A DNA stretch of 64,000 nucleotides from Halolamina rubra (GTDB taxonomy: Archaea; Halobacteriota; Halobacteria; Halobacteriales; Haloferacaceae), in the NCBI RefSeq assembly GCF_000739555.1, contig NZ_BBJN01000008.1:1-64000 (forward strand), read 5' to 3'. The first letter of the stretch is position 1, and every line of letters starts with the position of its first letter. Positions 1,910 through 22,961 of this stretch are shown one piece after another. The notes beneath the pieces were generated by a model, which did not search any database, had not been told where the DNA came from, and worked only from the letters and a program-made list of their open reading frames with translations. Position numbers and translations under genes: made by a program.

Positions 1910-2056
1910 CGGTTAGGGTGGTTTGTCCCGGATTCGTATGTCAACGTCAGGGCCAGTGTCCGCTCCGTCTCCCGATTGAATATGGGCCATGAACAATCTC
2001 ATGCGAACATCTTATACTTCATGAGCAAGTAGATGGGAGTAGCAATTGGGGTCCCT

Positions 2057-2368
2057 ATGAGCAGTAACGACACCAAGCACGTGCAAACTGAACTGAACGA
2101 GGACGAATACGAACGCTTCCGGCAGTTCGCGAACGAGCACGGCCTCTCGGTCAAAGAAGCCAGCCACGAGGCGCTGGTCGAGTGGATCGAACGCCAACAG
2201 CAAGCCGATCCCAACGACCCGGCGTTCACCGTCCTCGACGACCTCGAGGACGAATCACTCCCAGCGTCGGTGGCGACGGACGCTCGCGAGGAAGCCGATC
2301 TCGTCGAGGAGTGGGACGGCAGCGACGAATCGTTCACGCTCGCCGATGACCCGTCTGCGCAATCCTGA
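2057..2368 (+). CDS. VapB-like antitoxin
   Basis: A 103-residue acidic protein. The N-terminal 50 residues (VQTELNEDEYERFRQFANEHGLSV) look like a short DNA-binding antitoxin of the ribbon-helix-helix/AbrB-like kind. The acidic tail would be the toxin-binding part. It lies 6 bases before a PIN-domain gene, the usual antitoxin-then-toxin order. A TATA-like CTTATAC at about 2009-2015 would start transcription near 2037, favouring the ATG at 2057 over the in-frame ATG at 2033. The pair would form a complex that represses its own promoter. The family assignment rests on context and size. Confidence 0.72.
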   Translation: MSSNDTKHVQTELNEDEYERFRQFANEHGLSVKEASHEALVEWIERQQQADPNDPAFTVLDDLEDESLPASVATDAREEADLVEEWDGSDESFTLADDPSAQS

Positions 2369-2374
2369 GTTCGG

Positions 2375-2872
2375 ATGGCTGAACCAGTCGAAACCCCGAT
2401 CGGGACGGTCACACCCGAGCATTTCCGTCCGGGCCACGTCCGCCATCAGGTCGTCGTCGGGCCGAAGTTCCTGTACGCATTATTCAACCCACAAGATCAG
2501 ATGCACGCAGTCTCGCGGGCGTTCATGACGTTCGTTCGCGACGGCGATCTCCCGTATCGTCGCCTCATCGTCAACGACCACATCGTCGACGAGGCCGCAA
2601 CCCGGCTGAAAAAGCAAGGGTCGATGCGGAACGCAGCCTCGTTCCTGACGACGCTCGAAGAGAGCACGCTGTATCAGTGCGAATCCGTCTCTGAGGATGT
2701 GTTCGATGACGCCAAAGCAACGTTCGTTGAGTGGACGGATCTGGATGCGTCACTCACCGATTTCGTTGTCGCTGCACACATGGACGACCTAGCCGTCGAT
2801 CACATCCTCACGTACGACCGGCACTACGATGCGTTCGACGTGACAACGCTTCCGTATCGTAATCAGGACTAG
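2375..2872 (+). CDS. PIN-domain VapC-like toxin ribonuclease
   Basis: A 165-residue protein with the PIN fold. The second acidic motif is at VDEAATRL, the third at DASLTDFVVAAHM and the fourth at TYDRHYDAF. VapC toxins are Mg-dependent endoribonucleases, often cleaving tRNA or rRNA, and are held inactive by VapB. The position normally filled by the first catalytic Asp reads VVVGPKFLYALF, so Gly replaces Asp. Activity may therefore be reduced or lost, unless this clade uses another residue. The gene follows the antitoxin with a 6-base gap and ends just before a frameshifted winged-helix gene. Confidence 0.82.
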   Translation: MAEPVETPIGTVTPEHFRPGHVRHQVVVGPKFLYALFNPQDQMHAVSRAFMTFVRDGDLPYRRLIVNDHIVDEAATRLKKQGSMRNAASFLTTLEESTLYQCESVSEDVFDDAKATFVEWTDLDASLTDFVVAAHMDDLAVDHILTYDRHYDAFDVTTLPYRNQD

Positions 2873-4560: not shown

Positions 4561-5460
4561 CTAGGCGTCCCACCAGCGATCGCGCTCCGGGAAGTGGATG
4601 GTGCTCCACCCGGTCACGGCCAGGGAGACACGGCCCTCGTACCAGTTCCTGGCGGCCTCGTGAATGCGCACGCGTTCGCCTTCTGCGATCCACGGGGCGT
4701 CCGACGCCTTCCAGATCGTCAGCTTCGTCTGCCCGCTCTCGTCCGCGATCAGCCCGACCTGTTGGATCGCCGGCGAGGAACTCTCCCAGAGCGTCTCCAC
4801 ACGCCCCGCGATGGTCACCTCGGTGCGATCCACCTCGTCCAGGGCGTCGATGGGCACGGTGCCCCCCGAAGCCGTCCGCAACTCCTCGAAGACACGCACA
4901 ACCGCACTCGTCATGTCCGTGCCGTCGACGATCGCTTCGGCCAGCCGGCGACTGATCGCCGCTCGCGACCAGCCGTCCAGCCGCGTCGCGAGTCGGTCCG
5001 CCTCCGTGTTCACCGTCGCCAGTTCGTCTTTCGAAAGTTCCACCCGGGGATCAGCCCGTTCGGGGTCGGCGCTGGCGTCGACGCCCGCCGCACGCGCCTG
5101 AAACGCCCGCCGGCGCTGCGTGCTTCGCGCCGCCGCGATCTCGCGGGTTCGGGCTTCCCGACCGGCCTGCGTCCCCAGTTCGGCCCGGGCACTGATTCGC
5201 TCCAGTTCGGCCTCCCGCGCCCTGATGCGCTCCTCCTGTTCGAGGGTCACCCCGTGAATTCGTTCATCGCTCGCGTCCGTGATCCCCTCAGGGTGGTTCG
5301 CGTCCACTTTCGCCTGGGTCTCCTGCTCGACCGCCGGCTCCAGCTGGGGCGTGTCGTCGACGACCGAGGAATCGTCGCCCGCGACCGACTCCGGATTTGC
5401 CTGTTCGAACGCCTGTTCATCGACCGTAACGCGTTTTCGACTCGATTTCTTACTAGACAT
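4561..5460 (-). CDS. RPA-like OB-fold single-stranded DNA-binding protein
   Basis: A 299-residue protein. The first 120 residues are charged and Glu/Arg-rich, with a likely coiled coil (EQEERIRAREAELERI). A helical region follows at about 130-190. The C-terminal 100 residues form an OB-fold like haloarchaeal replication protein A (VTIAGRVETLWES, VGLIADESGQTKLTIWKAS, VRIHEAARNWYEGRVSLAV). It probably binds single-stranded DNA during replication or transfer of the element. Versions with this layout are common on haloarchaeal plasmids. It starts at ATG 5460, and an 18-bp hairpin lies 90 bases upstream. Confidence 0.78.
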   Translation of the reverse strand: MSSKKSSRKRVTVDEQAFEQANPESVAGDDSSVVDDTPQLEPAVEQETQAKVDANHPEGITDASDERIHGVTLEQEERIRAREAELERISARAELGTQAGREARTREIAAARSTQRRRAFQARAAGVDASADPERADPRVELSKDELATVNTEADRLATRLDGWSRAAISRRLAEAIVDGTDMTSAVVRVFEELRTASGGTVPIDALDEVDRTEVTIAGRVETLWESSSPAIQQVGLIADESGQTKLTIWKASDAPWIAEGERVRIHEAARNWYEGRVSLAVTGWSTIHFPERDRWWDA

Positions 5461-5549
5461 TGGATCTCACTGATCCGAAGGCGCTCACGCGCCGACTCCC
5501 GCGATGCTTCCTCGTCGCGGGGTTTCGACATCGACCGACAGCACCAGCT

Positions 5550-5604
5550 GCGCGCTCTCGCTCGCGCCTTCGCGAGCGCCCCCTGGGCGCGAGCGAGAGC
5601 GCGC
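5550..5604. terminator. Perfect 18-bp inverted repeat (strong hairpin)
   Basis: GCGCGCTCTCGCTCGCGC at 5550-5567 is matched exactly by its reverse complement at 5587-5604, with a 19-base loop. It lies between the ABC permease stop (6065, minus) and the RPA-like start (5460, minus). It could end the exporter transcript or be a structural element of the mobile region. Confidence 0.6.
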
Positions 5605-6064
5605 CTGCATGCGGTGGCCCCAACCAGCACCGCGCGGCGAGACCGCCCGGAGCGAGCGGCCAGCGGAGAAAGCGTGGGGGGTGAGCAGCCACGCCGCGCA
5701 ACCCCTCGCGCTTTCCCGCTGGCGCCGAGGGCACATGCACTTTAGCCCGGAACGGCGACCGAGCGCACGCGAGGGAGCCGCACGCCCGGAATGGTCGGTC
5801 GCGAGCGACGCGCGGCTCGGAGCGAACGCAGTGAGCGAGAACCGCGCTAGCGAACGGCGAACGCAGTGAGCCGTGAGCAAGCGGAGGGCGGCAGCGGCGC
5901 GCGGGGCGGGCCGGTACGGACACACCTTCCCAGCCGCCCACGTCGCTCAGTGACCTCGGTTACAGGCCTGCCGCCCGCAGCACGGAGGCCATCACGATCG
6001 AGGAGTCTCCAGCAGTGGCCCAACTGCAGGCCGTGGAACTGACGGCATCGACGCCCGTGGGCCG
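5605..6064. other. GC-rich intergenic DNA with short GAGCGAAC-type repeats
   Basis: No gene is recognisable. The sequence is full of the GAACGCAGTGAGCGAG-type words (5820-5875) that recur between haloarchaeal genes. Long open frames on both strands follow from the base composition and lack any protein signature. Confidence 0.5.
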
Positions 6065-8169: not shown

Positions 8170-8344
8170 CGGCCATACTGCCCCTGCGTTTAGGGGATAC
8201 ATCCCGCAGAGAGCGGGGAGTCTCAGGAGCGATAGTTGCGCCGACGACGTTTTAGGACCCCTCCTCGGACCCACTGTTGGCCCCCAAGTAACGAGGGCCT
8301 TACCTGTAACCCGGCAGTTCGGAGGGAGTCGCCGTACTCCCTCC
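8170..8344. repeat. Cluster of short perfect hairpins
   Basis: Three stem-loops lie close together: CCCCT/AGGGG near 8179-8194, a TCCCGC/GCGGGGA hairpin near 8201-8219, and GGAGGGAGT (8321-8329) facing ACTCCCTCC (8336-8344) with a 6-base loop. No gene overlaps them. They lie between the divergent ABC ATPase and pilin genes and could be an RNA leader or protein sites. Confidence 0.5.
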
Positions 8345-8498
8345 ACGCTGTCTGTCACCAGGTAGCAGTTCCATACTGTCTTTCGGCGCTGATAATTTGG
8401 TCACGGCTTTTATGTACCAGTCCTGAGTTTGAGCAGATAGACGCGGTAGCCCAGGGGCGCGCCCACACGCGTTACGATGCCCCTACTGCCGGGTTACA
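8305..8498. repeat. 13-bp inverted repeat flanking the pilin promoter
   Basis: TGTAACCCGGCAG at 8305-8317 recurs as its exact reverse complement at 8486-8498. The 168 bases between hold a TATA-like CTTTTATG (8405-8412). The second arm lies 10 bases before the first pilin start codon. The layout would also suit a long-range RNA stem or an invertible segment. Confidence 0.6.
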
Positions 8499-8508
8499 AG
8501 GCAAAACC

Positions 8509-8913
8509 ATGATTTCGAAACTCAAAGCAGCACTCGACGACGATCGAGGTGTGTCACCGGTTATCGGTGTCATCCTCATGGTTGCGATTACGGTCATTCT
8601 CGCAGCCGTTATCGGCACGTTCGTGCTTGGACTGGGCGACAGTCTCGAGCAGGCACCGCAGGCGCAGCTGGATGCGGAGGGTGGTACTGGTGAGATTACG
8701 CTCTCGCACAACGGTGGGGACGCTCTCCCGTCGGCTGACATTACAATCAACGTCGAGGACGCAAGCGGCACGACCAACCCGTTCAGCATTACTGGCGACT
8801 TCTCAGTTGGTGACACAGCTACCGCAAGTGTGTCGGCAAACACTTACACTGTAACCGTCCTTCACGACCCGTCCCAGTCGATCCTGCTCGAAACTCAAGT
8901 CGAGGTCCAGTAA
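8509..8913 (+). CDS. Archaeal type IV pilin
   Basis: A 134-residue pilin precursor. A short charged leader ends in DDDRG, followed by the archaeal pilin core [28 protein letters not shown] (DUF1628-type). The PibD-type peptidase should cut between G and V. The hydrophobic helix then packs into the filament core. The rest is a small beta-rich domain with [14 protein letters not shown] and [11 protein letters not shown], shared with the next gene. ATG at 8509 fits the pilin N-terminus; longer upstream starts would add an unrelated sequence. The function is a surface filament for adhesion or biofilm formation. Confidence 0.92.
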
Positions 8914-8939
8914 CGACCTAACCAACATCCTTTGCACCC

Positions 8940-9374
8940 ATGACTCAAAACGACTATACCGACGATAATCGGGCCGTGAGTCCCGTCATAGGCGTGATAC
9001 TGATGGTTGCAATAACCGTCATTCTCGCCGCTGTGATCGGCGGGTTCGTCCTTGGCCTCGGTGGCGATCTGCAGTCTGCGCCGCAGGCACAGCTTGAGGC
9101 AACTGGCGTCGGCAACGACAACGTGGAGCTATCCCACAACGGCGGTGACGCCATCCCAGCCGGTGATCTCGACGTGAAGTTCGGGAGTAATACCGCTGAG
9201 GGGTTCGAGACGGTATCTCCTGCCAGTAGCAACTACAACGCCGACACGGAGTTCCAAGTCGGCGACTCCGCTGAGTTCGGAAGCGTATTCGGCGGGAATT
9301 CCGAGATTCGAGTTCAGGTGATCCACACTCCATCTGAGTCGATTATCTTGGACACGACAGTTCAAGCACCGTAA
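8940..9374 (+). CDS. Archaeal type IV pilin, paralogue of the preceding gene
   Basis: A 144-residue pilin precursor with leader [12 protein letters not shown], predicted cleavage before VSPVIGVIL, then a hydrophobic helix nearly identical to its neighbour's. The C-terminal domain shares [14 protein letters not shown] and [13 protein letters not shown] with it but is otherwise diverged. The pair looks like a tandem duplication, probably transcribed together (26-base gap). The two products may be mixed in one filament or used alternatively. Confidence 0.92.
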
Positions 9375-10348: not shown

Positions 10349-11272
10349 TCACCCAGTAACCGTAAGTAGCGAATCACGGTGTTTCCGGACCGTTTCGACC
10401 GTCACCTCAGCGGCCGCCGCCGCATCGGCCTGCGTCAACGGTTCGTCCTGCGAACACGCCGCCATGTACAGACAGGCGGCGGCGAACCCCGCTGGATGCA
10501 CGCCGGTCGTGACGCCGGCGTCGACGGCCTGCGTGGCCAACTGCGCAGCCTGCCGCCGCACCGCGTCGGTACACCCCAACTCGGCCGCCAGCCGCGGGAC
10601 GAACTGGCTCGGCCGCACCGGCGGCGTCGGCAGCCCCAGTTCCGTGTTCAGCACGCGATACGCGCCCTCGACGCGGGCCTGGCTGACCCGGGCCAGCGGC
10701 GCCACGTCGGTCATGAGCCACGACTGCCCGGTACATCGACAGACCCCAAACACGCTCGCGGCCGCCATCGCCTCGATCGACCGGCCGGGGAGCAGGCCCG
10801 CATCCTGCGCGGTCCGGAACAGCTGACACGCCTGCTCGCGCACCGACGCCGCCAGCCCCAGCGCGCTCGCGATCCGCTGGACCTCCGTGAGCCCGTGGCC
10901 GAGATTGCGCTCCCGTTTCGACTGCCAGCGGGCTCGGGACTGCTGCCGGCGCATGCGGGCCAGTCGGCGTCGTTTTTCGTTCTCCAGCTCGTTCCCCTGC
11001 GCATCCCGCTGGCTGCCGATCCGGGTCGACAGGCCGCGATCGTGCCGCGTCGCCGTGAGCGGTGCCCCGGCCCGCTTCGCCGACTCGGGATCGTCGGCGC
11101 GCCACGTCGGCCCCCGATCGACGTGCTGGTCGTCCATGACCAGGCCACAGTCCGTACACGCCGTCTCGACGGCCGTCGTCCGCACGTCGCCGCCACACTC
11201 CGGACACGGCTTGGTTGTACCCCACTGGACGTCCTCGTCGAACACCCGTTCGTAGCTGTCTCTCGTCGGCAT
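10349..11272 (-). CDS. tfb: Transcription initiation factor TFB, element type
   Basis: A 307-residue TFIIB homologue. The zinc ribbon uses C23, C26, C39 and C42 (CPECGG...CTDCG). The B-reader region (RGPTWRADDPESAKRAG) follows, then two cyclin-like repeats from about residues 110 to 300, with a final helix-turn-helix (ADAAAAAEVTVETVRKHRDSLL). TFB recruits RNA polymerase to TATA/BRE promoters. Haloarchaea carry several TFBs with different targets. This copy lies on the accessory region, divergent from the large ATPase, so it may serve the element's own promoters. ATG at 11272 is preferred over a GTG nine bases upstream. Confidence 0.9.
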   Translation of the reverse strand: MPTRDSYERVFDEDVQWGTTKPCPECGGDVRTTAVETACTDCGLVMDDQHVDRGPTWRADDPESAKRAGAPLTATRHDRGLSTRIGSQRDAQGNELENEKRRRLARMRRQQSRARWQSKRERNLGHGLTEVQRIASALGLAASVREQACQLFRTAQDAGLLPGRSIEAMAAASVFGVCRCTGQSWLMTDVAPLARVSQARVEGAYRVLNTELGLPTPPVRPSQFVPRLAAELGCTDAVRRQAAQLATQAVDAGVTTGVHPAGFAAACLYMAACSQDEPLTQADAAAAAEVTVETVRKHRDSLLTVTG

Positions 11273-11453
11273 CGGTCTCACCTACTGGAGCCCCCGCCAC
11301 GCCGGCGAGCCCTCCACCCCTCTCGGGGTCGACAAACTCGGCGCGACGCTCACCCAGTCGAACGGTCTACCTACAACCGGAACCCGGGAAAGAATATACA
11401 ACGCATCGCTCGCAATTTGTGCCAACACCGGTCCTCGACAGCCGCACGAACCC

Positions 11454-14400
11454 ATGTTCCCCGATGGCTTCACGACCGAGCGGTCCTACCTCCGCGTCCA
11501 CCCGAGCGACGAGCCGCTCCAGCCCGACCGGATCGCCCAGTCGCTGACCCGGCTGCACCGCACGGACGCCGCCACCGAGCCACCCACCCACGAGTGGCTG
11601 TTCGCCGCCACCGGCGAGCCCGGCCCGGACGGCGACCGCCGGATCGAGTGGTACGTCGGCACCGACGGCCAGCTCGGCCCGGTCCGCCGCACCCTCCGCC
11701 AAGTCCTCCCTGACTCGGTCGACCTCGTCGAAACCGACTGTACGTATCGGGAGCTGCTCGATCTGCCGGCCGACCCCGACGTGGCGACGGCGCCCAGCGC
11801 TGCCGATCCTGGCGACACAGTGGCCGACGGGGCCGGCACCGACGCCGTCGACGCGACGGCCGGGGCTTCCGACACCGAGACTGCCGACACCCCCCACTGG
11901 GACGTCGCCGCCGTCGAGTGGGAGGGCGTCGGCGACCGCCCGGCCGACTGGCAGTGCCCGCTCCCGTCGCTCGCCGAGTTCGCCGTCGATGACGACCCGA
12001 ACGCTAACACCGACACGGCGGGCAACTGGCCGCTCGCGGACCTGCTGGACGGGCTCGCGACCAGCGATGCCCCGACACTCGTCCAGTTCCTGCTCACGCC
12101 GCGAGCCGACTGGACCGCCAGGAAGGCGGACCGCATCCTCGACCTCGAACTCCACAGCGATCTCCGTCGCAACGCCGTCCTCCAGTCGCTCCTCGGCTCG
12201 CCGGAGCGACCCGCGGAACCAGACCCACCGGACGCGACCGACGACCCCGACAGCCCTGATGAGTCGGTCAACCCCGCGAACCGCCAGCGCATCGAGGGCC
12301 TCCGCACCGTCGACGCCCGGCAGTCGTTCACCCTCAACGCTCGCGCGATCACGGTCGACACCGACGCCGACCGGGCGACCCGCACCAGCGAGGCCGTCGC
12401 CGCTGGCCTCCAGGCGATCCGGGGGGATCACTACCGGGTCACCCCGACCGTGGCCGACTACGGCACGGACGCCGCCCACGACCGCCTCGCCGACCTCTGC
12501 ACCCGCACAACCACCCAGTCGCCGACGCGCTGGCGCCACCAGCTCCCCGGAACAACCAACGCCAGCCCGGCCATCGTCGCCGATCCGGGCGCCGTCGCGG
12601 CCTGCTGTCTCGTGAACGGGCCGGCGCTCGGCCCCGCAGCCAGCCGGGCCGTCGAGCCGACGCCGGCCGACCGAACGGGGATCGAGCTCCCGCCTCGAAC
12701 GGTGCTCGATCGCTATCTTGACCAGGCGGGGATGACCGTCGGCCACCCGAAAACCGGCGACCGGGAGCGCCTCGACGCGACGCTGTCGCTGCCGCCGTCG
12801 ATCCAGCCGCTCCACACCACGCTGTTCGGCGCCACCGGCAGCGGGAAAACCGCGGTCGGGCAGACGATGCAGCTCACCAACCACGCCGCGACCGACGGCG
12901 CCACCGTCTACCTCGACGCCAAGGGCGACAACGCGCCCGCCGAGTACGCCCGCATGCAGTTCGCCCGCCACGGCGATCTGGACAACCTCCACTACTTCGA
13001 CTGCACCGAATACCTCCCCGCCCTCCCGTTCCTCACGATCGAGCCGCTCCTCGAGGCCGGCCTGGATCGCGAGTGGGCGGTCAACACCGTCGCCGAACAC
13101 TACGTCGACCTGCTCGCCGCCGCCATGGGCCCCGAGCAGTTCTACAGCGCGGAGGCGGCCGTCGAGGTGCTCGAACAGCTCGTCCGCGCGCTGTTCGACC
13201 CCGTCCACGGCGCCGCCAGCATCAGCCAGCAGGAGCTGCTCGCGGCCGCCGCGCAGTTCCACGAGACGGGCAACCCGCCGCCGGTCTCCGACGGCGCGCT
13301 CCACCAGAAGCTCGCCAACACCGCCGCGAACGCGCCAACGACGTTCGACAGCATCATGAGCGCCGTCACCCGCCGCATCGGGCTCGCGACCAACGACGCC
13401 CGGCTCGCCCCGCTGTTCGAGGCCCAGCCCGACGCCGCGACGTTTGACCTCCGCGCGGCGCTCGACGAGGACTGCGTCATCGTGTTCGACCTCCAGGGGT
13501 ACGGCGACCGCTCGCGCACCCTGCTGGCGGTCGCCATCCTCTCCCAGCTCTGGCGCGCGCTCCAGCGGCGCCACGCGCTCGCCCCCGACCGGGACCACCC
13601 GCTCGTCAACTGCTACATCGAGGAGGCCGCGGAGCTGGCGACGACGGGCGTGCTCGACACGCTCCTCGCCCAGGGGCGGTCGTTCAACCTGGCGCTGACG
13701 CTCGCGATGCAGTTCCCCGAACAGCTCCGGGAGTCCCACCCGCGTGTCTATGCCGAACTGCTCAACGACGTCGGCACCATCATCACGGGCCCCGTCGGCG
13801 TCGATCGCCGGCTGGCCGAACGGCTGGCCTCCAGCGACGCCGACGCCGAGGCGGTTGCCGACCGCCTGCGCGACCTCCAGCGTGGCGAGTGGCTCGTCCG
13901 CCCCGCCGCCCCCTTCGCCACCCGCCAGCCGCGGCCCTTTGCCGTCGCGTCACCATCGCTGCCTGAGGGCCACCCGGAGAGCGACCGGTCGCTCACCGGC
14001 GCTCGCGACCAGGCGTTCGACGACGCGTTCGCGGCGGCGAAGACGCGGACGCGAGAGCAGCGTGGCGTCGCGGTCGGCCGCACGGCCAGTGGGAGCACGG
14101 ACCCCGCGGCCCTCGACGGCCCGGTCACGGGCTCGGTGGCGGGGTTGACGGCCGCCACCGCGACCATCCCCCACTCCGAGCGGTTCCCGGACGGCCTCAC
14201 GTACCTCGATGAACCGCCGTACCCGCTCGTCTGCGAGACGTGTGAAACCCGCTATGCGGCGACGCCCGAGGGGATGCGCCGCGCGATCGCGTGTCACGGC
14301 TCGCTCGACGCCGTCGACCGGGCGAACATCCCCATCTGCTCGCTCGATCTCCAGCTCACCAGCGGGGAGCGCGCCGCGAGTCCGTACAGCGACGCCCAGC

Positions 14401-15131
14401 TCCGCCTGCTCGCCGCCGTGTACATGGCCCACCAGCAGCGCTTCGACCCGACGCTGGAGTACGACCTCGTCTGGGACTCCATGACCCAGCTGGAGGCGTA
14501 CGTCGGCATCGACACCGACGGCGCCCAGGAGTTACTCGACGACGGCCTCCTCCGCATCGACTGTCGCCGCCCCCACAAGCTGTACACGGTGACGCCCGAC
14601 GGCCGGGACGCCATCGGCGTCGGCCACCGGGAGGGGATCGCCTACGGCGACGGCACGGGCGATCTCTCGGAGTCGAGTCTCCACGTCGCGATGGTTGCGG
14701 TAGGGGCACGGCTACTGGACCAGGAGTTCGTCGCCCCCGCCGACCAGCCCGGGACGCGCGTCGAGCGCTACTACGGCGTCGACGATGGCCGGTTGGACGC
14801 GGCGGTGCTCGACGCCGATGGTGACGTCGTGGCGGCGCTCGAGGCCGAGCGCATCAACAACGACCGCGGGGAGGCGATCCCCAGCGATTTCGACAAGATG
14901 GCGGCCTGCGACCCCGAGGCGGCGTGGTGGCTGGTGAAGACGCGGGGCGATGGCCACCAGGTGTTGCGGGCGCTGCATGACCCGCCCGATGGGGACAGCC
15001 GGGTGCCCCGGTCGTACAGCGAGAACATGGCGCCGCGTGAGTACCGCCTCGACACGCCGGGGTTGACGGACGTGCTCACCCTCGAGTACGCCCGGGACAC
15101 GCTGCTCGACGGTGACGGGCCGCTGGCGTGA
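11454..15131 (+). CDS. HerA/VirB4-like conjugation-type ATPase with C-terminal nuclease-like module
   Basis: A 1225-residue protein. The N-terminal 300 residues resemble the non-catalytic region of haloarchaeal VirB4/TraC-like ATPases (YLRVHPSDEPLQPDRIAQSL, IEWYVGTDGQLGPV). The motor has Walker A GATGSGKT near residue 460 and Walker B CVIVFDLQG near 675, then the sensor-like IEEAAEL and MQFPEQLRES. A Cys/His cluster near 925-950 (CETC...ACH) may bind zinc. A winged helix follows (about 980-1055). The final part has a PD-(D/E)XK-like or replication-relaxation-like core (RLDAAVLDADGDVVAALEAERINND). The role is probably DNA translocation during transfer. It is divergent from tfb. Confidence 0.8.
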   Translation: MFPDGFTTERSYLRVHPSDEPLQPDRIAQSLTRLHRTDAATEPPTHEWLFAATGEPGPDGDRRIEWYVGTDGQLGPVRRTLRQVLPDSVDLVETDCTYRELLDLPADPDVATAPSAADPGDTVADGAGTDAVDATAGASDTETADTPHWDVAAVEWEGVGDRPADWQCPLPSLAEFAVDDDPNANTDTAGNWPLADLLDGLATSDAPTLVQFLLTPRADWTARKADRILDLELHSDLRRNAVLQSLLGSPERPAEPDPPDATDDPDSPDESVNPANRQRIEGLRTVDARQSFTLNARAITVDTDADRATRTSEAVAAGLQAIRGDHYRVTPTVADYGTDAAHDRLADLCTRTTTQSPTRWRHQLPGTTNASPAIVADPGAVAACCLVNGPALGPAASRAVEPTPADRTGIELPPRTVLDRYLDQAGMTVGHPKTGDRERLDATLSLPPSIQPLHTTLFGATGSGKTAVGQTMQLTNHAATDGATVYLDAKGDNAPAEYARMQFARHGDLDNLHYFDCTEYLPALPFLTIEPLLEAGLDREWAVNTVAEHYVDLLAAAMGPEQFYSAEAAVEVLEQLVRALFDPVHGAASISQQELLAAAAQFHETGNPPPVSDGALHQKLANTAANAPTTFDSIMSAVTRRIGLATNDARLAPLFEAQPDAATFDLRAALDEDCVIVFDLQGYGDRSRTLLAVAILSQLWRALQRRHALAPDRDHPLVNCYIEEAAELATTGVLDTLLAQGRSFNLALTLAMQFPEQLRESHPRVYAELLNDVGTIITGPVGVDRRLAERLASSDADAEAVADRLRDLQRGEWLVRPAAPFATRQPRPFAVASPSLPEGHPESDRSLTGARDQAFDDAFAAAKTRTREQRGVAVGRTASGSTDPAALDGPVTGSVAGLTAATATIPHSERFPDGLTYLDEPPYPLVCETCETRYAATPEGMRRAIACHGSLDAVDRANIPICSLDLQLTSGERAASPYSDAQLRLLAAVYMAHQQRFDPTLEYDLVWDSMTQLEAYVGIDTDGAQELLDDGLLRIDCRRPHKLYTVTPDGRDAIGVGHREGIAYGDGTGDLSESSLHVAMVAVGARLLDQEFVAPADQPGTRVERYYGVDDGRLDAAVLDADGDVVAALEAERINNDRGEAIPSDFDKMAACDPEAAWWLVKTRGDGHQVLRALHDPPDGDSRVPRSYSENMAPREYRLDTPGLTDVLTLEYARDTLLDGDGPLA

Positions 15132-15189
15132 CGGCCGCAGCCACTACAGAGGGGGTACCGTCCGCAAGAACACACGTAACGGGCCGCTG
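15132..15189. other. Short spacer after the ATPase gene
   Basis: This is GC-rich spacer with no feature seen before the minisatellite begins. Confidence 0.4.
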
Positions 15190-15560
15190 AGGGCGTCGAC
15201 GATGCGGAGGGACAGGTCGGGCGGCGACAGTGGGGGAGGAGCAGGGCGGGCGTCAATGATGGGGACGTCGGTCTGCGCTCCGACTATGGAGCGGCAGGGG
15301 ATGGCGTCGACGGTGGGGAACGAGCAGGGCGGGCGTTGATGATGGAGACGTGGAGATCGGGCATCTACGATGGGGAACCGGCTGGGCGTCGACGATGGGG
15401 AGCCGGTCAGGCGTCGATGGTGAGGGAGCTGGTCAAGCATCGGTGATAGAGTGGAGCAGGTTGGGCATCGACGTTGGTGTAGTGCAAACCGGGCGTCGAC
15501 GATGCGAGAAGCCGGTCGGACATCGACGATGAGTGTGGAGCCGGCCGGTGTGCCGCTGCC
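15190..15560. repeat. GTCGAC-rich minisatellite, about 12 degenerate units
   Basis: A 25-30-bp unit recurs about a dozen times. Its core is GGGCGTCGACGATGGGGAG followed by CCGGTC. The best copies are at about 15377-15430 and 15494-15540; outer copies are more diverged. On the minus strand the repeats give an open frame rich in IVDARP-like words, which I regard as a by-product. Variants of the core word (ATCGTCGACGCC in reverse) occur in another array at 35984-36034. Confidence 0.8.
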
Positions 15561-19118: not shown

Positions 19119-20540
19119 TTACTCGTCTCGCAGAACGGCACCCACGGCATCGACGCCGACCTTCCAGACCTGGCGAATAACCAACTTCATGTCGAACGTG
19201 AACGACTGCTGTTTCACGTACTGGAGGTCGTACCGGAGTTTCTTCGCCGGTTCGGCACCGGTCACATCGTTCACTTGCGCTAATCCAGTCAGTCCGGGTT
19301 TTACGAACCACCGCTTCTGCCAGTCCACCACACCGGCCTCGATATCCGAATCGAGTTCGGGGCGCTCCGGCCGAGGCCCAACGGCACTCATATCGCCTTT
19401 CAGGACGGCCCAGAGCTGCGGGATCTCGTCGAGGTGGGTCTGCCGGAGTAGCCGCCCAACACGTGTCACCCGGGGGTCGACACCACCTTCGTCTTCGTCG
19501 CTGATCGTCGCTCCTGTCCCGTCCTCCGCGTTCTCGATCATCGAGCGGAACTTGTACACGTCGAACGTCTCGCCGAACACGGCCGTCCGCTCCTGTTTAT
19601 ACAGCACCGACCCGCCATCGTCCAGCTTGATGGCCAGTGCGATCGCAGCGATCGCCGGACTCAGCGCGAGCAGGCCGACCGTCGAGAACGCCAGGTCGAA
19701 GCCACGTTTCAGCACGTAGTCCTGTACGTCCCACGGCTCGATGTCGACGTCGACGAGCGTTCCGACATCGTCCCCCGAGGTCAGTACTTGGTCAGCATGG
19801 TCCCGGTGTACCTTCGCGTCAACCCCCTGCTCGTAGCAGGCGTCGAGCGCGCCGAAGAACTCCGCGCGGTCGGTGTGTTCGAACGCGAGCACTACCGTGT
19901 CCACGTCGTACTCGACGAGCACGTCCTCGATGCGCGAGAGGCCACCCAGTCGCGTGAGCCCGCCGACGCCGCCGTCAGCGACGACCGGCTGCGGAGCCGA
20001 GCGGCTGGGTCGGTCGAACGCGATCGTCGGGCAGAGATACCCTAAGAGCGGCACGTCCACATCGGCGGCGAGGCGCTCGATCTCTGCGGGGTCGTCGCCG
20101 ACGATGATCCCCCGCTCGGGATCAGTCGTCGGTCGGCGCCGGATCCACACGAACCACGCCGGGAGCGTGATCAGGAGGACGGGTGCAATCACTAGCAGCG
20201 TCGCTCGGGGCAGCCGGTACGTGTAGTCGAAGTAGCCGATAGCCGACAGCGCGAGCAGGGCGACGACGACCCGTTTCTGAGCGAGGACGACGGCGTCGAG
20301 GATACGCCGTGGGCGCGGCTTGTACAGCGGGACAAATGCCCCGGTGACGACCACGACCGTCGTCGCGACCTCGAGGAACCCCTCAGCTGCTGTTGGCGGG
20401 TCGATCGAGAGCGAACCGACGACTGGCAGCGACGCGAAAATCGTCTGGGCGGTGGGGCTGTTCGCGACGCCGACCGCCAACGCGGTCAGCACCGCCACCC
20501 CGAGCACGCTCGTCGCTCGATAGCGCCAGCCGCCGTTCAT
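19119..20540 (-). CDS. Polyprenyl-phosphate glycosylphosphotransferase (sugar transferase)
   Basis: A 473-residue membrane enzyme. Four or five N-terminal transmembrane helices precede a Rossmann-like central domain with a CoA-binding-like look (RGIIVGDDPAEIERLAADVDVPLLGYL). The C-terminal bacterial sugar transferase domain runs KRGFDLAFSTVGLLALSPAIAA, VYKFRSMIENAEDG, FLRQTHLDEIPQLWAVLKGDMS-like (RLLRQTHLDEIPQL), VGPRPERPE and FVKPGLTGLAQVNDVTG. It transfers a sugar-1-phosphate from a nucleotide sugar to dolichyl or polyprenyl phosphate, starting a surface glycan. It lies just downstream of the STT3-like gene on the same strand, consistent with a glycosylation pathway. Confidence 0.92.
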   Translation of the reverse strand: MNGGWRYRATSVLGVAVLTALAVGVANSPTAQTIFASLPVVGSLSIDPPTAAEGFLEVATTVVVVTGAFVPLYKPRPRRILDAVVLAQKRVVVALLALSAIGYFDYTYRLPRATLLVIAPVLLITLPAWFVWIRRRPTTDPERGIIVGDDPAEIERLAADVDVPLLGYLCPTIAFDRPSRSAPQPVVADGGVGGLTRLGGLSRIEDVLVEYDVDTVVLAFEHTDRAEFFGALDACYEQGVDAKVHRDHADQVLTSGDDVGTLVDVDIEPWDVQDYVLKRGFDLAFSTVGLLALSPAIAAIALAIKLDDGGSVLYKQERTAVFGETFDVYKFRSMIENAEDGTGATISDEDEGGVDPRVTRVGRLLRQTHLDEIPQLWAVLKGDMSAVGPRPERPELDSDIEAGVVDWQKRWFVKPGLTGLAQVNDVTGAEPAKKLRYDLQYVKQQSFTFDMKLVIRQVWKVGVDAVGAVLRDE

Positions 20541-20591
20541 CACGTTTCCTTGCGACGCTGGGAAGGTTAAACACTCCGACTCAGTTAATCG

Positions 20592-22961
20592 CTAACTACC
20601 CGTCCCGGATTCGGCGCTAGGGCGGACGGGACGACCGTTCTCGACCGCCTCCTCGGACACGGTCACTGATCCATCGGCGATCTCGTACGTTCCGGGATAG
20701 GGAACCCGCACCGAGTAGTTCCCGGACGCATCCGCTGTCACCGTCCGACTGTACGTCACTTCCTCCCCACCGACCTCAACGGTCGTCGTCGCCGTCACCG
20801 TCGCGTTCGGGTCGGCCGAGCCGGTCACCGTCGCCCCCGGAACCAGCGTGAACACCTTCATCGACCCGTCGTCGCTGGCCCACACCGCCCGATAATGACC
20901 GGTTTCGTTCCCCCACGCATGCAGTCGGTTATACATCAGTTCGTCATCCGTACTCGACAGTCCGTTGTGGCGGTCGACGACGACGAATCCAGTTCGGCCG
21001 TTTAGCCGCTGGTACCACGTCGACGCGTTCGCGGAAGTGAGGAAATCACCGTAGTTCGACTGGGCATACCCGTAGCTGCGGGATTCGCCGTTTACGATCG
21101 CGTTGTACATCCGGCTGTCGCCCCATTCGCTGAACACGTAGTTCTGCGGGTACTCCCAGCTTTCCTCGGTAGCGTGGTCGTCCATGAACGTCGCCGCCTC
21201 GTAGCTCTCGTCGCTCACCATCAGGCTCGTCGTCCGGGCGGGACTGATCACCGCGCCGAGGCCGCCGACCAGCAGGACGATCATTCCGACCGCGAGGACT
21301 GTATCACGGTTCGGCATTGAGAACGCCGGGAGCCTGGGCGCCCGCTCGCTCCAGGTGTCCAGTCCGTCTTCGGCGACCATCGCCGGCCGCACGGTCGCAC
21401 CAGTGACAGCGCTCAGGTGGACGACAGCGACGCCGGCGAACACCGATGAGAACAGCGCCAACTGACCTGCGAACCGGACCTGAAGCAGTGCGAGCAGCAA
21501 GAACACAGTGCTGTAACTCCCGGCGAGCTGCCAGACTGGACGATTCTGGGACCAGCCGGCGGCCAGACTCCACGCCATGTATGGGAGCGCGAAGAAGAGC
21601 GTCAGTCCGAAGAAGAAGAACGGGCCGACGATGGTCCCGTACTGCGTCCCGAACAGCGAGGCCGTCTCCGCAATCCCTTCGACGGAGCCGCCTCCGACCA
21701 GCCGATCAAGTTCCTGCGTGAACTCCGCACCGAACTCCGGAACCACGGTGTACGCGACGACGAAAACGACGGCACCAGCCGCGGCGACCAGCCCCATCGT
21801 CATCCGGGCTGAGAGACCGTATCGACGCGCTCCTTCCCCGACCAAGAGGACTGCGCCCAGCCCGGCAGCGAGCAGGAGTGGCGTCGCGACGATGTAGAGC
21901 TCCTGCCAGTCGAGCGTCGTGTGGACGACGACCGCAAGTACCCCCCCAAGACCGATAGCACCGACCAGCGGTAGGTCCGCGAGCGGTGACGTGCCGGTGT
22001 CGACGGCGGCCGTCGCCCGCACCACGCCGTACAGCGCTATCGGGAGGAGGAGAAGCGGGCCGGCGTTCCACGCGAGTACCTGCCCGGCGACGCCAACGGC
22101 AACAACGCCACCTAGCGCGAGCGTCCACAGGGTCACGACCTTGCGATCGTCCTCTTCCCCCATCGATGTACGCTGGAGGAGCGCCACGGCGGCGACGGCG
22201 GTGATCGCGAGCCAGACGTAGTCGAACGCGTGGTGGTCGGCGAACCCGATCGCCGTCCGGTAGGCGTGGACCGGCGTCACGGCGAGCATGACGACGCTCG
22301 CGACGCCGACACGGCGGTCGTCGGTCACCTGCACGGCGAGGACGTAGACGAGCGCGGCGGTCACCAGCCCGGCGACGACCGGGTACCACGCGAGCACGAG
22401 GTCGGCGGTCTCGACGGTCCCGCCCAGCAACTTCGTCACGGCAAGTAGTGCTGCGAGCATGAGTGGCTCGCCGAGCAGCACCGAATCAGGAAGCGAGGTA
22501 ACACCCGCCCCCTGTTCGAGGGACTCGAGCAGCAGGTAGCGGTAGGCGTACGGGTCGTTCCCCAGGAATACGATGTGCTCGCTGCGGAACACCGACGGGT
22601 AGGCGACCAGCCGGACGGCGACGACGAAGGCGAGTGCGGCGACGATCGCGCCCCCGACACGCCGGGGCGGCAGATCGAGATCGAACTCCAGCGACGGCGA
22701 CGAGTCCTCGGCCGTCGCCTCGAGTTCCTCGCCGTCGAGGGCTGCCTGTACCGCTTCTCGATCTGCGACGCGGTACTCGCCGTCGACCTTCTCGACGATC
22801 CCGCGGGAGACGAGTTCGCCGAACGTCCCCGAGTCGATCGGGATATCGTCGAACGTCCAGGTCTCCTTGCTAGCGTCGACCTCGAGGACGGCCCGGAGGT
22901 CGTCGTCGACGGCAGGGCGGTCCGAACGGAGGGTCGCTGTCGCCTCCCGCACGTCGCTCAT
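20592..22961 (-). CDS. STT3/AglB-like membrane protein with N-terminal winged-helix-like domain
   Basis: A 789-residue protein. Residues 1-95 form a soluble domain that looks like a winged helix ([34 protein letters not shown]). About 13 transmembrane helices follow. The first external loop keeps an acidic motif (NDPYAYR), and a DHH motif is present ([11 protein letters not shown]). The soluble C-terminal part has [10 protein letters not shown] where oligosaccharyltransferases have WWDYG, then a beta sandwich near the end. It belongs to the STT3 superfamily but may not be a classical AglB. It probably moves glycans onto proteins or lipids, together with the sugar transferase 51 bases downstream. 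Confidence 0.75.

Follow-up and report, generated by a model that had tools for sequence, protein, structure and literature searches.

The window studied here is a stretch of 64,000 nucleotides of Halolamina rubra DNA (contig NZ_BBJN01000008.1, positions 1 to 64,000, forward strand), and our subject is its gene at 11454-15131 on the plus strand, which encodes a coupling-type ATPase of 1225 amino acids (aa) with a C-terminal PD-(D/E)XK-like domain. The open reading frame (ORF) counts 1225 codons from its ATG to the stop, as established by translation and comparison with homologues. The chain opens with an N-terminal region and continues with a VirD4/TrwB-type motor, after which come a zinc-like cluster, then a winged helix and, last, a PD-(D/E)XK-like fold; the same full-length architecture recurred in homologues at 34% to 91% identity. 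The original prediction, made from the letters of the window alone, had joined a motor, a zinc-like cluster, a winged helix and a nuclease-like end in one polypeptide, and all of these were present. A 790-aa antisense ORF at 11367-13739 was rejected as a high-GC shadow ORF, its tblastn matches being the antisense strand of the coupling gene.

The motor-nuclease is a widespread haloarchaeal family and no one-off of the window's genome, in which the sole match of the gene was itself. Relatives were found by tblastn in 144 haloarchaeal plasmid records (28 of the 144 covered over at least 80%), among them pNRC200 of Halobacterium salinarum, and family matches were present in 128 of 197 related genomes, while phage records gave zero relatives by tblastn. 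The closest named relatives of the window protein belong to Halolamina (87% identity). The window's own branch B (53 sequences used) resides chiefly on chromosomes or megaplasmids, where its setting is chromosomal islands; the plasmid-borne branches A (about 1270 aa) and A2 (about 1320-1470 aa) lie directly 3' of VirB4; and a short form of about 800 aa is without residues 1-425. Upstream of the short gene, three loci (L059, L060, L063) carry a same-strand frame of 430-458 residues with hydrophobic segments; the membrane protein of roughly 450 aa upstream of the short form was considered as a split-off N-terminal region and rejected, the similarity not being significant. One genome (G033) contains two VirB4-linked coupling gene copies (L114, L115), each in three overlapping frames through decay or assembly errors, and an apparent split nuclease ORF beside VirB4 in this genome proved to be fragmented (frameshifted) coupling genes and no natural split.

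The N-terminal region (residues 1-425, 11454-12728, plus strand, as are all features of the gene below) is alpha/beta in the AlphaFold model and is spanned by Foldseek alignments to VirB4/TrwK. It is followed by a RecA-like motor of the VirD4/TrwB/HerA/VirB4 superfamily (residues 426-845, 12729-13988), identified by PF10412 and Foldseek. The PF10412 coupling-protein match scored 25.7 bits against a gathering cut-off of 20.5, and the top PDB fold matches of the modelled motor were HerA, VirB4/TrwK and TrwB (for TrwB, E about 1e-10 and TM-score to target 0.60-0.66), with HerA-NurA and the DUF4297-HerA complex also among them. The earlier label of a HerA/VirB4-like motor was right as to fold, where both are close, while the curated Pfam cut-off makes it a type IV coupling protein. 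Walker A (GATGSGKT, residues 459-466, 12828-12851; G462, G464 and K465 invariant) and Walker B (VIVFDL with D679, 13476-13493) were intact, as the original prediction had it, and homologue alignment also placed the catalytic acidic pair E723-E724 of the motor at 13620-13625; K465, D679 and E723 were invariant or nearly so across homologues. An all-helical insertion in the motor (residues 539-644, 13068-13385, from model secondary structure) sits where coupling proteins carry their all-alpha domain, and from the model it may be the equivalent of that domain. No N-terminal transmembrane segment was found (maximum Kyte-Doolittle 19-residue window, 1.46); since coupling proteins without a transmembrane domain are a recognised class (PMC7431656), its lack is not decisive against a coupling-protein identity.

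Behind the motor, the zinc-like cluster CETC...CH (C927, C930, C947, H948; 14232-14297) was defined by homologue alignment. Its three cysteines were identical in 53/53 branch B sequences and 3/3 short relatives, position 948 was C or H where read, and the cluster was absent from the VirB4-linked plasmid branch A. The winged helix (residues about 980-1055, 14391-14618) was seen in the AlphaFold model and by Foldseek (MarR/RovA, probability about 0.9), and the PD-(D/E)XK-like domain (residues 1058-1195, 14625-15038) by model, Foldseek and alignment. The structure prediction that had been proposed for the tail was run on residues 895-1225, with the plasmid-record rows left out of the alignment used for folding; it gave a mean pLDDT of 91.1, a pTM of 0.90 and a core in the order alpha-beta-beta-beta-alpha-beta. 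The acidic residues expected of a metal site were present, so the C-terminal fold is not one that lacks them. On the first helix or at its start lie E1073 (acidic residue of helix A, 14670-14672) and H1077; the stretch RLDAAVLDADG...EAERINND, which had first drawn attention to the tail, corresponds to beta2-beta3 and contains D1115 (on strand 2 of the model, 14796-14798) and E1130-x-E1132 (strand 3, 14841-14849, in place of (D/E)-x-K); and the helix after strand 3 bears D1145, D1147 and K1148. The last of these (helix B, 14895-14897), a candidate displaced lysine, was found in 92% of branch B and in all short-form and clade A members. E1073, H1077, D1115, E1130, E1132, D1145 and D1147 were invariant in 48/48 aligned sequences, down to 24% identity, and were common to all three groups of the sequence family.

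Sequence profiles from Pfam, PHROGs and the PDB matched no nuclease family and gave nothing more than weak winged-helix matches, and the recurring Foldseek matches of the tail (NucS/EndoMS, R.BspD6I, YaeQ, SfsA, Card1, phage PD-(D/E)XK) were weak. A NurA-type RNase H fold was not seen in the tail, whose model is PD-(D/E)XK-like. The likeness to replication-relaxation proteins that had also been suggested was abandoned, because the Replic_Relax profile (PF13814) had no match in 51 C-termini and, among 145 genomes of the class, none that passed the cut-off. Two stand-alone proteins at other haloarchaeal loci combine a winged helix with a PD-(D/E)XK-like part (L116: 8516-9328, minus strand, 270 aa; L117: 6936-7811, plus strand, 291 aa); they have the same D...ExE...D pattern and no Pfam or PHROGs name, and their existence as free proteins means that the module of winged helix and nuclease stands on its own. 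The VirB4-linked A2 coupling proteins (L062, L066, L006, L080, L081) had no copy of the window-type nuclease domain detectable by profile, and carry in their C-terminal part a PDA...EVETTT...K stretch that is unrelated in sequence to the window tail. If that stretch, as its residue pattern suggests, were a second PD-(D/E)XK-like domain, nuclease tails would have been gained on two occasions, which would speak for the activity being required.

The neighbours of homologues connect the family with VirB4 and VirB6. In pNRC200 and pSTJ002, for example, the gene order is VirB6, a further conserved gene, VirB4, the coupling gene and a primase; VirB6 of the plasmid operons matches TrbL_3 (PF19590, E 1.2e-136), and VirB4 overlaps the coupling gene. 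For branch B, positions from the family search were compared with those from the VirB4 search: VirB4 lay within 100 kb on the same contig in at least 38 of 52 cases (median 24 kb among the matches listed), and in at least 23 of these cases the two genes were divergent. On contigs numbered C1, at least 22 of 30 branch B genes had VirB4 within 100 kb (binomial p about 3e-16 with chance taken as 10%, a value that is merely indicative, the genomes being related). Another contig of the window's genome, C54, carries VirB4 and VirB6 together with two partner genes. Two sister genomes, G004 and G005, have at one locus of about 30 kb pieces of C54 alternating with pieces from the left part of the window's contig, and we therefore infer that the window gene and the C54 operon are one element split by assembly. 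Genes of the type IV secretion system (T4SS) and of replication also occur together in a chromosomal island of G107, a compact element with the coupling gene, an OB-fold protein, a TFB, VirB4, an NrS-1-like primase and Orc1/Cdc6.

Hardly any relaxases are known from archaea. According to the literature, no recognisable relaxase is encoded by archaeal conjugative plasmids, and HerA-NurA was suggested to make the strand (PMC9905601). In our data MOB-suite classed 144 of 144 plasmid records with a family member as non-mobilizable, that is, it recognised no MOB relaxase. Neither PF03432 nor PF08751, the two families to which our relaxase search was limited, was found in the window's genome or matched by the window protein. 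PF03432 exceeded the Pfam cut-off in 5 of 118 related genomes (G131, G137, G145, G149, G155), an observation that runs counter to the general statement that archaea lack relaxases; four of these five are absent from the list of genomes with a family match, the fifth has a weak one (E 3.9e-9), and in four of the five VirB4 was matched only distantly (1e-50 to 1e-92).

Several other features of the window accompany the gene. Its divergent neighbour is a TFB (TFIIB) paralogue (10349-11281, minus strand; PF00382, 1.3e-30), whose cluster occurred in 12 of 26 loci, and a conserved partner is an OB-fold DNA-binding protein resembling a single-stranded DNA-binding protein (SSB; 4561-5460, minus strand), with a weak PF01336 match, a cluster in 16 of 26 loci and a relative that matches PF21473 (Ssb-like_OB). 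Between the two genes, at 8236-9374, are two short proteins with archaeal pilin-like N-termini. A CopG/RHH and PIN pair (2033-2872, plus strand) belongs to the same island, and a similar pair is near the gene in L003 and L004. Upstream of the OB gene, BLAST comparison revealed conserved intergenic DNA (5462-5960, no strand assigned) with a 19-bp perfect inverted repeat, whose arms (5550-5568 and 5586-5604) were kept in 6 of 6 compared copies. About 410 bp of it recurred at 87-88% identity on many plasmids from various haloarchaeal genera (223 places in 156 records), with further copies at 4001-4467 of L125-L129; the OB protein, at 54-68% identity to that of the window, is less conserved than this adjacent DNA. 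The intergenic DNA was also present on plasmids without a recognised T4SS, had no match in phages and gave chance-level matches only in Rfam; it is a candidate origin (of transfer or replication) or regulatory cis element.

Just 3' of the gene, degenerate direct repeats (GGGCGTCGACGATGGGGA-like, 15154-15531) lie at the apparent edge of the island. Moreover, an aglB oligosaccharyltransferase/sugar-transferase locus adjoins the element or lies within tens of kb of it in several genera (19119-22961 in the window; 1107-3548 in L095; also L038, L048, G002, G003 and G006). N-glycosylation is tied to haloarchaeal mating, and the proximity of aglB may be more than a mere hotspot. A search of sister genomes for an empty site, starting from the aglB flank, showed that this flank is itself variable and gave no clean border.

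Because of the VirB4/VirB6 linkage and the evidence from the C54 locus, we assign the window gene the role of coupling ATPase of a conjugation-type element. Further, we judge it somewhat probable that the gene encodes the type IV coupling protein of an integrative element of conjugation type in haloarchaea and that its own nuclease takes over the task of a relaxase in part or in full. The DNA-transfer setting in haloarchaeal elements was correctly foreseen, whereas "self-contained" was an overstatement, as a VirB4/VirB6 operon, the OB-fold protein, the TFB paralogue and often a primase accompany the gene. The winged helix and zinc cluster would dock the presumed hexameric motor on element DNA, and the PD-(D/E)XK domain, presumably with bound metal, would cut or nick this DNA to give an end or strand for transfer, which the motor would drive to the VirB4/VirB6 channel; the OB-fold protein would coat single strands, and the primase, in elements having one, would rebuild the second strand, so that the motor-nuclease would replace the missing relaxase. 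More tentatively, we envisage a relaxase-free haloarchaeal conjugation in which the coupling ATPase might recognise and cut the element, perhaps at the hairpin-bearing intergenic DNA by the OB gene, and then pump a strand through VirB4/VirB6, initiation and translocation being combined in one chain.

Several observations weigh against a coupling protein that cuts its own substrate. Some members (e.g. in G165) have no nearby VirB4 among the matches listed, and short relatives of about 800 aa occur in G009 and G079 without VirB4 among the matches listed, so the motor-nuclease can exist without a VirB4 channel. Integrase, att site and empty site were not defined, so "integrative" is a description by context, and relaxases of families beyond the two searched could be present. 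In the tail, no Foldseek E-value was below 0.001 and strand 3 reads E-x-E, which makes catalysis uncertain; the lysine of (D/E)-x-K may have shifted to helix B or been lost. This last point, together with the weak fold E-values, is what lends some credit to an ordinary coupling protein whose tail has a PD-(D/E)XK-like fold but no catalytic activity and serves only for binding DNA or a separate nicking enzyme, all the more as variable C-terminal substrate-recognition domains are common in bacterial coupling proteins. However, the seven invariant residues of the tail, identical in three groups, look like an active site, the third VirB4-linked subfamily has its own PDA...EVET...K stretch, and a partner relaxase was not found among the two families searched; we regard a dead tail as doubtful, though a serious contender.

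A motor with no transmembrane segment, the winged helix and the lack of a detected relaxase in those families would also suit transfer of double-stranded DNA as by Streptomyces TraB, in which the winged helix would read a repeated site and the nuclease merely trim or regulate ends. This appears unlikely, as the OB-fold, SSB-like partner and the primase point to a single-stranded stage and the pili of archaeal conjugation have been judged too narrow to pass double-stranded DNA (PMC9905601), although the channel of these elements may differ. A defence engine, with motor and nuclease tracking along and destroying incoming DNA like HerA-nuclease defence systems, had been part of the original prediction, and the short relatives without listed VirB4, the DUF4297-HerA complex among the fold matches and a PADLOC mad8 match (E 5.3e-10, with a HerA match below threshold) fit it. 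But mad8 matches no more than the generic motor, known defence partners were not recognised nearby, the related genes on plasmids belong to operons with VirB4, VirB6 and primase, and branch B clusters with VirB4; a defence role is quite improbable. Least probable of all, and very much so, is a host-type DNA-end resection machine for repair, a one-chain analogue of HerA-NurA: HerA and HerA-NurA are among the best fold matches, but the patchy spread (128/197 genomes), the plasmid and island location and the VirB4 linkage speak against it, and the nuclease fold of NurA is that of RNase H (PMC9905601) and not PD-(D/E)XK.

Compared with known systems, the protein predicted to be a coupling ATPase with its own nuclease shares with TrwB/VirD4/TraG coupling proteins (PF10412, PF12696) the RecA-like motor, Walker A and B, the helical insertion at the all-alpha-domain position and, in the plasmid branch, a VirB4-adjacent gene, and differs in having no transmembrane segment, a large N-terminal region and a zinc cluster, winged helix and PD-(D/E)XK tail. 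Like archaeal HerA-NurA it joins a HerA-family motor with a nuclease, but in one chain, with another nuclease fold and on a transfer element. TraB of Streptomyces and of actinomycete integrative and conjugative elements (AICE) resembles it in that a motor is joined to a winged helix and in transfer without a relaxase, as proposed here; TraB differs in its FtsK-family motor and is not known to have a nuclease domain or VirB4/VirB6 partners. Haloarchaeal VirB4/VirD4 elements were already known, and the integrated mobile elements of Fusexin (Fsx1) are likewise large and carry VirB4 and TraG/TraD/VirD4 genes; in the parts of that source available to us the ATPase is labelled VirD4 family and a nuclease tail is not mentioned (PMC9259645). 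Crenarchaeal Ced/Ted transfer is also T4SS-like and without relaxase, with a motor and a nuclease proposed to make the DNA substrate (PMC9905601), but it would borrow the separate HerA and NurA of the host, whereas the element studied here encodes both parts in a single chain. In Haloferax volcanii, a protein labelled "TraD" becomes more abundant under mating conditions (PMC7749143).

In the literature we searched, subscription journals and preprints being outside it, we found no description of an archaeal coupling protein that has a nuclease domain. The type IV coupling protein is a known kind, and, as modelled, the coupling ATPase with a built-in nuclease-like tail is the new part. An open question is by what means conjugative elements of archaea, having no relaxase, produce their transfer substrate (PMC9905601), and an element-encoded coupling ATPase with an invariant nuclease-like site, on haloarchaeal plasmids and chromosomal islands, provides a concrete candidate in genetically tractable archaea. 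If the proposal is true, it would be a one-chain alternative to relaxase plus coupling protein, and the motor-nuclease may be the missing tool that starts archaeal DNA transfer.

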